From positions 1,367,362-1,431,361 of the forward strand of contig CP075364.1 of NCBI GenBank assembly GCA_019454105.1: a stretch of DNA of 64,000 nucleotides, read 5' to 3'. Below are positions 40,691 through 44,864 of this stretch, in pieces. Positions within the stretch are counted from its first letter, which is position 1; each line of letters begins with the position of its first letter. Both the position numbers and the translations under genes were made by a program. Below the pieces are notes generated by a model. The model saw nothing but the letters and a program-made list of their open reading frames with translations, did not search any database and was not told the DNA's origin. The DNA is from Fimbriimonadaceae bacterium (lineage in GTDB: Bacteria; Armatimonadota; Fimbriimonadia; Fimbriimonadales; Fimbriimonadaceae).

Positions 40691-42019
40691 ATGAACCGGT
40701 TGCCCAGCGTGGACCGACTTAGCCGATCGCCTGAATTGGAGAAGTTCTCCCCCCGCACCCGGGTGGCGGCCGCCCGAGCCGCCATTGACGAGTTCAGATC
40801 AGCTGGAGGCCCGGCTCCCGGACCGGAAGATCTCGTGCGGCTGGCGTTGGAATTGGCAGAAGGTTTGGCTAACCCCCTGGTCAGACCCGCTGTCAACCTG
40901 TCCGGGGTTGTGCTCCACACTGGTCTCGGTCGGGCCCGACTCGCTCCGGAAGCCGCCGCCCAAGTCGCGATGGCCGCCGCCCGGTCGGTGACTGTCGAGA
41001 TCGACCCTGAAACAGGGGGCAGGGGTGACCGACAGGAGGCTGTCAGGGGCCTTCTCGTCGAGCTGACTGGGGCCGAAGACGCCATCGTCGTCAACAACTG
41101 CGCTGCGGCCGTGCACCTTGTCCTGCGGTCGCTCACGGCCCAGCGAGGAGTGGCGCTCTCTCGCGGTCAAATGGTGGAGATCGGAGGGTCGTTCCGGATG
41201 CCCGACATCGTTCGTGATTCGGGTTGCGCCTTGGTAGAAGTCGGTTGCACCAATCGGACCAGCCTGGACGACTATCGGGAAGCCTTGGAGTCCGGGTGTT
41301 CGGTCGTCCTCCGTTGCCACCGGTCGAACTTCACGATGACCGGGTTTGTGGGCGAGCCATCGGCAAAGGAAACGGCCGAGTTGGCGCACTCGTACGGGGC
41401 GCTGACGATCGATGACCTGGGAAGTGGGTGCCTGGTGGACACCACCCGGTACGGCCTTCCGAAGGAGCGGACTCTGCATGAAGCCGTGAGCGACGGGGCC
41501 GACGTGGTCATGGGCAGCGGCGACAAGCTGCTGGGCGGCCCTCAGGCAGGACTGATCGTCGGGCGCCGCGACTTGCTCCGGCAGGTCCGAACCCACCCTT
41601 TGGCTCGTGCCTTCCGGATCGACAAGCTGTGTCTAGCCGGCCTCGAGGCGACTCTGCGGATGTACGCCGAAGGTCGCGAGTCAGACGTTCCTTTGTGGCG
41701 ATCTCTAGCCCGCTCTCTGGCGGCTGTCAAGCGCGACGCAAGGCGACTAGCTGACGCCTTTCCGGGAAGGGCTGTGGTCGGACAGGGAACGACTGAACTG
41801 GGCGGAGGATCCTTCCCTGGGGCGGGCGTCCCAACTTGGCGAGCGGGCCTGGAGTCGCGCTCAGCCGTCTCTCTTCTCGCCGCCCTTCGGAACTCGCGCC
41901 CAGCTGTGATCGGGCGGATCGAAAAGGACCTGGTCTGGCTGGACCCAAGGCCTGCGGAAGCCGAAGACATTCAAGAAGCAGTCGCGGTCCTGCGCCGCCT
42001 TGATCCTGAACTCTTATGA
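40691..42019 (+). CDS. selA: L-seryl-tRNA(Sec) selenium transferase
   Basis: SelA is the PLP enzyme that converts Ser-tRNA(Sec) to Sec-tRNA(Sec) with selenophosphate. The protein is 442 residues. The N-terminal RLPSVDRLSRSPELEKFSPRTRVAAARAAI domain (tRNA binding), NLSGVVLHTGLGRARLAPEA, and the PLP lysine Lys279 in GSGDKLLGGPQAGLIVG are all visible. LCLAGLEATLRMY follows and a small C-terminal domain ends the chain. I chose ATG 40691 (standard N-terminus) over TTG 40649. SelB, SelD and tRNA(Sec) genes are not in the window. The next gene overlaps by ATGA, and a selenoprotein gene lies about 0.6 kb further on. Confidence 0.95.
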   Translation: MNRLPSVDRLSRSPELEKFSPRTRVAAARAAIDEFRSAGGPAPGPEDLVRLALELAEGLANPLVRPAVNLSGVVLHTGLGRARLAPEAAAQVAMAAARSVTVEIDPETGGRGDRQEAVRGLLVELTGAEDAIVVNNCAAAVHLVLRSLTAQRGVALSRGQMVEIGGSFRMPDIVRDSGCALVEVGCTNRTSLDDYREALESGCSVVLRCHRSNFTMTGFVGEPSAKETAELAHSYGALTIDDLGSGCLVDTTRYGLPKERTLHEAVSDGADVVMGSGDKLLGGPQAGLIVGRRDLLRQVRTHPLARAFRIDKLCLAGLEATLRMYAEGRESDVPLWRSLARSLAAVKRDARRLADAFPGRAVVGQGTTELGGGSFPGAGVPTWRAGLESRSAVSLLAALRNSRPAVIGRIEKDLVWLDPRPAEAEDIQEAVAVLRRLDPELL

Positions 42020-42606
42020 CAAGTCATGCCACCGAACACCAGAGCGACACCATCCGGGCCTTGGTCAGAGCCCTCGACCTTCATGGGCCTGGCGAGGGTG
42101 GCCACGCCGAGCGTGTCGCGGTCTATGCCGTCGCGACAGGCGAGAAGATGAGGCTGACTTTTGACGAGTTGCTGACCCTCCGTCGGGCCGCTGCCCTCCA
42201 TGACCTTGGTAAGCTCGGGCTCGATCGCGCCCTTTTGAGCCAACCGGGGCCTCTTGACGAGGCCCAATCGAATGAAGTGCGCGCCCACTGCCTCATGGCT
42301 CTCCAAGTCGTCGGGTCGTTCGAGTGGCTGCGCGCCGCCGTGCCGATGATCCGCCACCACCACGAGAGGTGGGACGGCCAAGGCTACCCAGACGGACTGA
42401 CGGGAGAATCTATTCCTCTCGGGGCCCGCATCATAGCGGTAGCCGAATCATTTGATGTTTTGACCTTTGGGGCTCCATGGCGACCGGCCGTGAGCGAAGC
42501 GGAGGCTGTCCGAGAGCTCCAAGCCGGAGCGGGGTCGCAGTTCGACCCAACCGTGGTCGCCGCCTTCCTCGAAGTCCAGCCCCTGATCCAGCCCGTAGCC
42601 GTCTAA
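42016..42606 (+). CDS. HD-GYP domain protein
   Basis: A 196-residue stand-alone HD-GYP-type phosphohydrolase. The HD doublet is in AALHDLGKLGLD, and the extended HHHERWDGQGYPDGLTGESIPLGARIIAVAESFDVL carries the GYP motif and metal ligands. Such proteins often hydrolyse c-di-GMP; substrate not proven here. It has no sensor domain. Its start overlaps selA (ATGA). Its stop overlaps the stop of the convergent selenoprotein gene (CTAA). Co-transcription with selA is likely. Confidence 0.88.
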   Translation: MTSHATEHQSDTIRALVRALDLHGPGEGGHAERVAVYAVATGEKMRLTFDELLTLRRAAALHDLGKLGLDRALLSQPGPLDEAQSNEVRAHCLMALQVVGSFEWLRAAVPMIRHHHERWDGQGYPDGLTGESIPLGARIIAVAESFDVLTFGAPWRPAVSEAEAVRELQAGAGSQFDPTVVAAFLEVQPLIQPVAV

Positions 42607-42893
42607 CGTCCGGAAGTCTTCTGCTCAATGGCTCGGAGCACCTCTCCTGGTTCAGCGTGCCGTCCGACCGCGTGCTTGGAGAACACTGTCGCACCATCGA
42701 CCTTCACGTCGAAGATCCCACCGCCGCCGGGAACAAGCACGACCTTTTCGAGGACATGGGGAGCGCCCATCGAGGCCCGGAACGCTTCAAACAACTCGGC
42801 CGCCAGACCGGCAGCCCGCGGCGTGTAGTTTCACGCCAGACAAAATGTGATCTCGACGACCATCGTGAACTTGAGAGTACCCTTGTCGCTCAT
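42603..42893 (-). CDS. SelW/Rdx-family selenoprotein with in-frame UGA
   Basis: A thioredoxin-like Rdx (SelW/SelT/SelH) protein of 96 residues, with selenocysteine at position 21. Reading from ATG 42893, the minus strand gives MSDKGTLKFTMVVEITFCLA, then TGA at 42833-42831, then NYTPRAAGLAAELFEAF and on to VVLVPGGGGIFDVKVDGATVFSK. This is the Rdx fold, with CxxU (C18, U21) in place of the family's CxxC/CxxU. The downstream PG-GG-x-F and GR-x-x-EPGE text matches the family. The ATG overlaps the upstream membrane-gene stop (ATGA). Without Sec decoding only a headless 63-residue frame from TTG 42794 remains. The protein likely works in redox chemistry; its substrate is unknown. Confidence 0.87.
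42798..42816 (-). promoter_or_regulatory. Bacterial SECIS-like hairpin
   Basis: Starting 15 nt after the UGA, GGCTGCC-GGTCT-GGCGGCC forms a 7-bp stem (one U-G wobble) with a 5-nt loop GGUCU. The first loop G is 22 nt after the UGA. Bacterial SECIS elements sit just 3' of UGA, with a G in the first loop positions, and bind SelB. GGUCU is also the apical loop of the E. coli fdhF SECIS (recalled from the literature). The hairpin lies inside the coding sequence, as expected in bacteria. Confidence 0.75.
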
Positions 42894-43273
42894 TCCCCCT
42901 GGAACCATTCCTTGACTTCCGGACGGAGCCAGGCCTGGAGAAGGAGGAGGCAGAGAGGCGTCAGACAACAACTCGCGATTCCCAAAGAAATGTTCCCCAC
43001 GTGCATGGCCCAGTGACCTGGGCGCCGCTGGACCCGCGAGAGCCAGAGGTTCAACAGGCCAAAGGCGACCGCCGTAGGCAGGAACAGGGCTCCGGCCAAG
43101 AGCCATACAGAGTCGGGCACCCATTCGCTCGCCAGGGCTTCCCTGCGCGCGATCATCCAAACAGAGACGGCGGCCAACAGCAGGTTCAAACCAGCGGACA
43201 CGAAGCAATACACGCGGTAATAGACGACGGCCCGAGGCACGGACTCTAGTTTAGACTCGGGTACACCAAGCAT
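42890..43273 (-). CDS. Small membrane protein upstream of selenoprotein
   Basis: A 127-residue protein with four predicted transmembrane segments (VVYYRVYCFVSAGLNLLLAAVSVWMIA, VWLLAGALFLPTAVAFGLLNL, ISLGIASCCLTPLCLLLL and flanking). I do not recognise the family. Its stop overlaps the selenoprotein ATG (TGA/ATGA), so the two are probably translated together. ATG 43273 shares CATG with the divergent NFACT start; GTG 43240 (VPRAVVYY) is a plausible alternative start that would free the region. Confidence 0.65.
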   Translation of the reverse strand: MLGVPESKLESVPRAVVYYRVYCFVSAGLNLLLAAVSVWMIARREALASEWVPDSVWLLAGALFLPTAVAFGLLNLWLSRVQRRPGHWAMHVGNISLGIASCCLTPLCLLLLQAWLRPEVKEWFQGE

Positions 43274-44864
43274 GAAGGTGCGGATCCCATTCGACAGTCT
43301 GACGATGGCGGCCGTTGTCGCAGAGTTGCAGCCGCTCGTCGGGGCACGTCTTGATAAGATCGTCCAGACCGACGAGGTGACGGTCGTTCTCGGCTTCTAC
43401 AAAGGCAACGAGAGCTATATCTTGCTCTCAGCCGACCCGAACTACTCACGTGCTCACCTCATCGCCCGGCGGCCCGAGGGGATCAAGCCGCCGCCTCGGT
43501 TTTGCGCCGACCTCCGCCGCACCCTCTCCGACGCCACACTCCAGTTCGTCCGCCAGCGGGGGCTCGACAGGGTCATGGAGGTCGGCCTCAGCGCCCCGTC
43601 AGGCGACTATCAACTCGTCGCCGAACTCATGGGCAAACACTCCAACCTGATCTTGGTCCGGCAAGACCGTTCCATCGCGACCGCGATCAAGTACGTTGGG
43701 CCAAGCAAGAGCCGCCGGCCCATCCTCGCGGGAAAACCCTACGAACCACCGCCGTTCGAGCCTCGGCCCAGCTTGCTGGAAGCCAAGCCGGGCGACAATC
43801 TTCGAGAGTTCGACGGCGGATCACCGTTCCTCGCCAAGTTGATCGAGGCCGGAACGCCCCTGGAAGAGGTCCAGTCCAGCGTACGGGAGGGGCGACTGGC
43901 CGCCTTCTATGCCCATGGTCACGGGGCGTATCCGCTCCCGCTCGGTCCACTCGGGTTGCCATTCGTCGTCAGGTCCTCCCTCGGCCTGGCCCTCGAACAA
44001 TCCTTCACGGGTTTGATCGAATCCGACAGGGCCCATGCTCAGAAGCAGGGCCTCCTCAAACAGCTTTCTCGGGTGCTCCTTGCCCGCGAAGTGGCCCTCC
44101 TCGAGGTTCGCGAGTCCGTCGATGCGGCGAAGAACGCAGACAGGCTCCAGCTGTTCGGGCAACTTGTGCTCGCTTATCAAGGCCAGATCAAGCCAGGCGA
44201 CCGGGCTCTCGACGCCTGGGACTACGAGGGCCGACCGCTCGCCGTGCCCCTCCGAGCCGACTTGACACCGCTTGAGAACGCGCAGAGGTACTTCGACAAG
44301 GCCAAACGGGCCAAGTCCCGGGCCGACGAAATGCTGTCCCAAGAAGCGAGGCTCGACAGCGACGCCAGAGAACTCGCGAGGTGGCTGCAGGAAGTCGAAT
44401 CGACCGACGATCCCGAACGGATCAAGACCGCTTTCGAAGAGGCAGAACGGCGCCGCTGGCTCAACCTGACCCCTGCGCCGGCCAGAAGCCGCGAAGAGCG
44501 ACCCTTCGAGGGCCACGCGATCCGCGAGCTCGTTTCGCCAGGAGGCTGGCGCGTCCTTTACGGCGAGAACGCGACCTCGAACGACTATCTGACAACGAAG
44601 TTCGCAAGGCCGAGCGACCTGTGGTTCCATGTCCGGGGTGCCCCCTCGGCCCACGTGGTTCTCGCCACGAACAACCAGCCCGACCGCGTGCAACGCGCCG
44701 ATCTTGAGTTCGCGGCGCGGGTCGCGGTCAGTCGCTCGCCATCCAAGCACTCAGGATATGTTTCGGTGGACTATGTTCAGAAACGCCACGTCCGCAAGCC
44801 GCGCGGGTCGGCCCCGGGGTTCGCGACCTACACCAACGAAAAGACCCTTCATGTGGAGACCTGA
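43272..44864 (+). CDS. rqcH: NFACT family protein (RqcH/FbpA type)
   Basis: A 530-residue NFACT protein. RqcH binds stalled 50S subunits and adds C-terminal alanine tails to mark aborted peptides. Visible are an NFACT-N domain (IPFDSLTMAAVVAELQPLVGARLDKIVQ), helix-rich middle (QARLDSDARELARWLQEVE) forming the coiled-coil arm, and a C-terminal NFACT-R domain (GWRVLYGENATSNDYLTTKFARPSDLWFHVRGAPSAHVVL). The last two segments are the RNA-binding fold. It may also be called a fibronectin-binding-like protein. The ATG overlaps the divergent ATG at CATG 43271-43274. Confidence 0.88.
   Translation: MKVRIPFDSLTMAAVVAELQPLVGARLDKIVQTDEVTVVLGFYKGNESYILLSADPNYSRAHLIARRPEGIKPPPRFCADLRRTLSDATLQFVRQRGLDRVMEVGLSAPSGDYQLVAELMGKHSNLILVRQDRSIATAIKYVGPSKSRRPILAGKPYEPPPFEPRPSLLEAKPGDNLREFDGGSPFLAKLIEAGTPLEEVQSSVREGRLAAFYAHGHGAYPLPLGPLGLPFVVRSSLGLALEQSFTGLIESDRAHAQKQGLLKQLSRVLLAREVALLEVRESVDAAKNADRLQLFGQLVLAYQGQIKPGDRALDAWDYEGRPLAVPLRADLTPLENAQRYFDKAKRAKSRADEMLSQEARLDSDARELARWLQEVESTDDPERIKTAFEEAERRRWLNLTPAPARSREERPFEGHAIRELVSPGGWRVLYGENATSNDYLTTKFARPSDLWFHVRGAPSAHVVLATNNQPDRVQRADLEFAARVAVSRSPSKHSGYVSVDYVQKRHVRKPRGSAPGFATYTNEKTLHVET

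Follow-up and report, generated by a model that had tools for sequence, protein, structure and literature searches.

Bacterial SelW-like selenoproteins carrying a CxxU motif have been described since 2005-2006, and Cys homologues of them are very few or absent in organisms that use Sec (PMC1088965, PMC1794560). SelW-like CxxU proteins are predicted with high confidence (PMC13188914), and it is documented that SelW genes are overlooked in annotation (PMC4607533). The route by which Sec is made and inserted, involving SelA, SelD, SelB and a SECIS element, is the established bacterial pathway, and the published bacterial SECIS (bSECIS) has a loop pair N1-N2, a G within the first two positions of the loop, a spacing of 16-37 nt and a minimum free energy (MFE) of at most -7.5 (PMC13188914). 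Here we analyze a candidate gene of this kind in a member of the Fimbriimonadaceae (Armatimonadota). It lies in a stretch of 64,000 nucleotides, hereafter the window, and the genome is a single contig of 2.74 Mb that is 99% complete.

Results

On the minus strand of the window, one open frame runs from 42893 to 42603; translation confirms that it is broken solely by the TGA at 42831-42833, which parts two frames of the same phase as the initial annotation had reported, and that it ends at a TAG stop. Under the standard code (table 11) the sole remaining ORF is 63 residues long and starts at TTG (42603-42794, minus strand), the headless frame that the same annotation had expected a standard gene call to leave. 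When TGA is read as U, positions 42603-42893 encode MSDKGTLKFTMVVEITFCLAUNYTPRAAGLAAELFEAF...IEQKTSGR*, a product of 96 aa with one TGA codon. The features of the locus are as follows.

42603-42863, minus strand: predicted Rdx/SelW-like selenoprotein gene; likeliest start ATG 42861-42863, 86 aa, C8-x-x-U11, stop TAG 42603-42605
42891-42893, minus strand: alternative start ATG; 96-aa product with Sec at 21
42831-42833, minus strand: UGA codon predicted to be read as Sec; TGA invariant in homologues, Cys in homologue L053
42799-42815, minus strand: putative bacterial SECIS hairpin; 6-bp stem GCUGCC/GGCGGC, loop GGUCU at 42805-42809
42874-42879, minus strand: possible -10 box TACTCT, 16 nt upstream of the ATG at 42863

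Which of the two ATG codons starts the protein? In the alignment, the Met matching ATG 42861-42863 is the start in nearly all relatives, and 12 of 32 relatives carry a TANNNT motif between -11 and -19, compared with a mean of 0.9 expected at random places. The upstream ATG overlaps the stop of the preceding ORF. Because of the position of the relatives' Met and the -10-like TANNNT box, we favor the downstream start, so that Sec probably stands at position 11 of an 86-aa product. The complete 96-residue protein with Sec at 21 that was first proposed thus holds as an Rdx readthrough product but probably not in its length, since the relatives point to the shorter form. If the transcript starts at the ATG at 42863 and is leaderless or nearly so, TACTCT could be its -10 box. 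TANNNT often stands 11-16 nt before the Rdx start in relatives from the same order (L018-L042), with little Shine-Dalgarno signal, whereas more distant Armatimonadota (L044-L051) mostly carry Shine-Dalgarno-like motifs near -12; leaderless transcription is thus possible in the Fimbriimonadales. We also note, in the neighboring DNA, a divergent pair formed by an RqcH/NFACT-like ORF (43272-44864, plus strand) and a 127-aa ORF (42890-43273, minus strand) whose start codons would overlap; if both predicted starts are right, the overlap is the palindrome CATG at 43271-43274.

The assignment to the Rdx/SelW family is upheld by profile and structure comparisons. The joined product matches Pfam Rdx (PF10262) with 59.1 bits (cut-off 22.6) over profile positions 2-73 of 74, and NCBIfam TIGR02174 (CXXU_selWTH) with 43.2 bits (cut-off 34.2). 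It also scores 75 bits against NCBIfam NF041051 (SelTWH_Campy), under the equivalog cut-off of 88 bits, and is therefore not that exact equivalog. Its redox motif is CLAU, and both the first Cys and the second Cys/Sec are invariant in 34 aligned sequences. The UGA aligns to the second Cys of the CxxC motif in the solved Cys-type Rdx proteins 3dex (E 1.4e-8), 2oka and 2fa8, the active-site position to which it had been assigned initially. Given this similarity to solved Rdx chains, the product probably adopts a thioredoxin-like fold.

The in-frame TGA is conserved far beyond this genome. Among the 291 Armatimonadota genomes of our phylum set, 39 contain Rdx, 38 with one in-frame TGA and a single one (G174) without. 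TGA occupies the second redox position in 33 of 33 aligned TGA-type genes of the phylum; the gene of G174 (L053), the single Cys-type control in the phylum, has Cys in the TGA column, within the motif CVPC. We then have a blind scan whose query comprised only the 75 residues after the TGA and whose target was 84,980 species genomes. Among the best 80 loci, 77 matches reach the first residues of the query, and the preceding codon is TGA in all 77. These relatives come from more than ten phyla, including Bacillota, Gemmatimonadota, Chloroflexota, Actinomycetota, Planctomycetota, and Delta- and Gammaproteobacteria; a plasmid search gave no match. Since TGA stands at the same column in every aligned gene of the phylum and before the query in 77 of 77 relatives, chance is excluded. 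The upstream CxxC/U region, on whose presence in relatives the initial annotation had staked its reading, is kept, with Sec (TGA) or, once, Cys at the exact position.

Downstream of the UGA, the hairpin begins 15 nt and its loop 21 nt after the codon, and it lies within the published bSECIS limits on loop G, loop size, spacing and MFE (PMC13188914). We assessed covariation in 33 gap-free aligned sequences, in which the stem comprises columns 19-24 with 30-35 and the loop columns 25-29. The stem is paired in 90.5% of cells, and both sides have changed in 26 cells versus 7.7 in shuffles, a value reached by 0 of 500 shuffles; controls with slid partners gave at most 5 such changes. At column 26, the loop G does not vary in any of 102 sequences, which comprise these 33 and 69 further ones from outside the Armatimonadota. 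Loop columns 25 and 28 covary (A-U in 16 sequences, G-C in 12, C-G in 2), a pair that resembles the N1-N2 loop pair of the published consensus. Most sequences have a Leu codon that starts at column 28, and there the choice is between the synonymous codons TTG and CTG. This codon tracks the first base of the one before it: AGN is followed by TTG in 16 of 18 cases and GGT by CTG in 12 of 12 (p 1e-6, an optimistic value since the sequences are taken as independent). Because the choice between TTG and CTG is synonymous, the covariation does not come from protein selection.

When this gene was left out and a covariance model was built from the remaining 32 sequences, the model recovered the site both in the window (50.2 bits, E 3.3e-11; next best 8.6 bits) and as the top match in the genome (E 1.4e-9; next best E 0.4). 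With this Rdx-based model, which is tuned to Rdx, we found no second significant SECIS site in the genome. Scanning the window against Rfam with gathering thresholds returned no matches, and the SECIS claim therefore rests on the alignment made here. The MFE of -16.1 for 43 nt (z -0.62) is ordinary for a sequence so GC-rich; the structural case for the putative SECIS is one of covariation, single-sequence folding energy being uninformative. In the Cys homologue L053, this hairpin is not formed. Finally, several SelW genes of Actinomycetota/Actinomarina (L161, L168, L172, L176, L186, L189, L192, L194 and L196) have the loop GGCAYG and lack the column 25/28 pair, which suggests a variant SECIS loop in these genes.

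The initial annotation had made its reading depend on selB, selD and tRNA(Sec) in the genome. All three were found, together with selA in the window, a gene that the initial annotation had left unmentioned.

C1:2364416-2364506, minus strand: tRNA-Sec (selC); full-length match, 74.6 bits, anticodon UCA by ARAGORN
C1:2034294-2036120: selB, 323 bits
G000:C1:1687052-1687978: selD (L016), 341 bits, with an in-frame TGA
40691-42019, plus strand: selA, L-seryl-tRNA(Sec) selenium transferase; ORF from TTG 40649, first ATG 40691; Pfam SelA 386 bits, TIGR00474 440 bits (cut-off 268)
42016-42606, plus strand: HD_5-domain protein (Pfam HD_5, 108.6 bits), between selA and the Rdx gene, its end overlapping the Rdx stop

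The in-frame TGA of selD lies in the N-terminal Cys/Sec loop (...VSCAGUASKLG...), and SelD of this genome is very probably a selenoprotein as well. We found no in-frame TGA in the genome's molybdopterin oxidoreductase, AhpC/TSA, CMD or DsbA families. selA and the Rdx gene are convergent and 0.6 kb apart; as far as is known, the intervening HD_5 gene stands outside the Sec system. This linkage is not conserved in relatives, where, judged by coordinates, the two genes are for example ~6 kb apart (G073), ~61 kb apart (G040) or on different contigs. We have therefore not counted the adjacency as evidence, and it is probably incidental.

Across the Armatimonadota, tRNA-Sec is present in 142 of 291 genomes and selA above its cut-off in 138 of 291. 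We observe that the Sec trait is widespread in the phylum yet patchy, with presence and absence even inside one genus (g5). tRNA-Sec occurs in 34 of 39 genomes with Rdx versus 108 of 252 others (one-sided Fisher p 1e-7, again optimistic since genomes are taken as independent). The five Rdx genomes without a tRNA-Sec match (G005, G039, G118, G170 and G209) are all assemblies of 72-88% completeness. The initial impression that selenoproteins are poorly documented in this lineage is borne out insofar as our search of the open-access literature turned up no description of Armatimonadota selenoproteins; it needs qualifying in view of this wide occurrence of tRNA-Sec and of the long-known SelW-like CxxU proteins.

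Discussion

How is the UGA at 42831-42833 decoded? We propose, with high confidence, that the product of the gene is a selenoprotein of the bacterial SelW-like type, within the Rdx (SelT/SelW/SelH) family, and that this UGA is decoded as Sec. Gene, family, UGA at the redox position, SECIS and machinery can be read from the sequence, and from them we infer Sec insertion in the cell. The hidden SelW/Rdx selenoprotein of the initial annotation thereby gains the support of TGA conservation, a covarying SECIS and a full set of machinery genes. SelA and SelD of the same genome would make Sec-tRNA(Sec). SelB, together with Sec-tRNA(Sec), would bind the SECIS through the loop 21 nt downstream, and Sec would be delivered at the UGA in place of termination. 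The product would be a small redox protein with the CxxU pair as its active site, probably forming a selenenylsulfide in thiol redox chemistry; motif and family point to a role as a thiol oxidoreductase. We are not aware of any established substrate of bacterial SelW-like/Rdx proteins.

That the frame is broken under table 11 might also mean that the gene was once a Cys-type Rdx gene and that the TGA is a lesion in it, whether a nonsense mutation or a sequencing error. Dozens of independent genomes from many phyla nevertheless carry the same TGA, and the SECIS hairpin has been conserved through compensatory changes; we reject a pseudogene or an error on the conservation of the TGA and consider either scarcely credible. 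Nor does it seem at all probable that translation stops at the UGA and that the 63-residue protein is made separately from the TTG at 42794. Its ORF is present, but such a protein would have neither the active-site motif nor the N-terminal portion of the Rdx domain. Protein conservation crosses the UGA in all relatives, and there is RNA-level constraint just 3' of the codon.

A different possibility is that the code is reassigned, or that a suppressor tRNA such as a Cys-charged one with a UCA anticodon acts at the UGA, so that the codon specifies an ordinary amino acid. Sec and Cys are indistinguishable by sequence conservation alone, and one relative (L053) accepts Cys at the TGA position. 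However, of 50 long non-overlapping ORFs in the window, 28, including selA, terminate at TGA; since it is the commonest ordinary stop there, we conclude that the code is not reassigned. In addition, the UCA tRNA that was found is a full-length match to tRNA-Sec, and reassignment would leave the SECIS hairpin with no role. We judge decoding as an ordinary amino acid very unlikely, and decoding as Sec remains our reading.

The locus matters in several respects. Default gene calling cuts this well-supported selenoprotein to a 63-residue fragment. About half of the searched Armatimonadota genomes have Sec machinery, judged by tRNA-Sec, and annotation of the phylum should therefore allow for Sec. 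The gene is also a clear case of RNA-level selection within a coding region, in which synonymous Leu codons keep the SECIS loop pair. More tentatively, and with somewhat less than even confidence, we suggest that the close Rdx clade around this gene may be essentially Sec-obligate, ancient and spread over many phyla, and that the SelW-like protein may be one reason why the Sec trait has been kept. If this is true, the clade would represent an undescribed, phylum-wide use of Sec in the Armatimonadota.

Finally, how does the gene compare with known systems? With the described bacterial SelW-like selenoproteins (PF10262) it shares family, size, CxxU motif, in-frame UGA, downstream bSECIS and genomic Sec machinery; it differs in its host lineage, here the Fimbriimonadaceae within the Armatimonadota. 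Like SelW of Epsilonproteobacteria (PMC4607533, NF041051), it belongs with the small SelW genes missed by annotation, and it likewise has the apical SECIS hairpin of 5/6 bp with an invariant loop G described there (PMC4607533). The solved Cys-type Rdx proteins (3dex, 2oka, 2fa8, 2ojl, 2obk and 2p0g) are homologous to its product across the domain, with the CxxC/U site and both the PRAA-LA-EL and the PG-GG-F-V segments included, but they have Cys where this gene would have Sec, and a SECIS is unnecessary for them.
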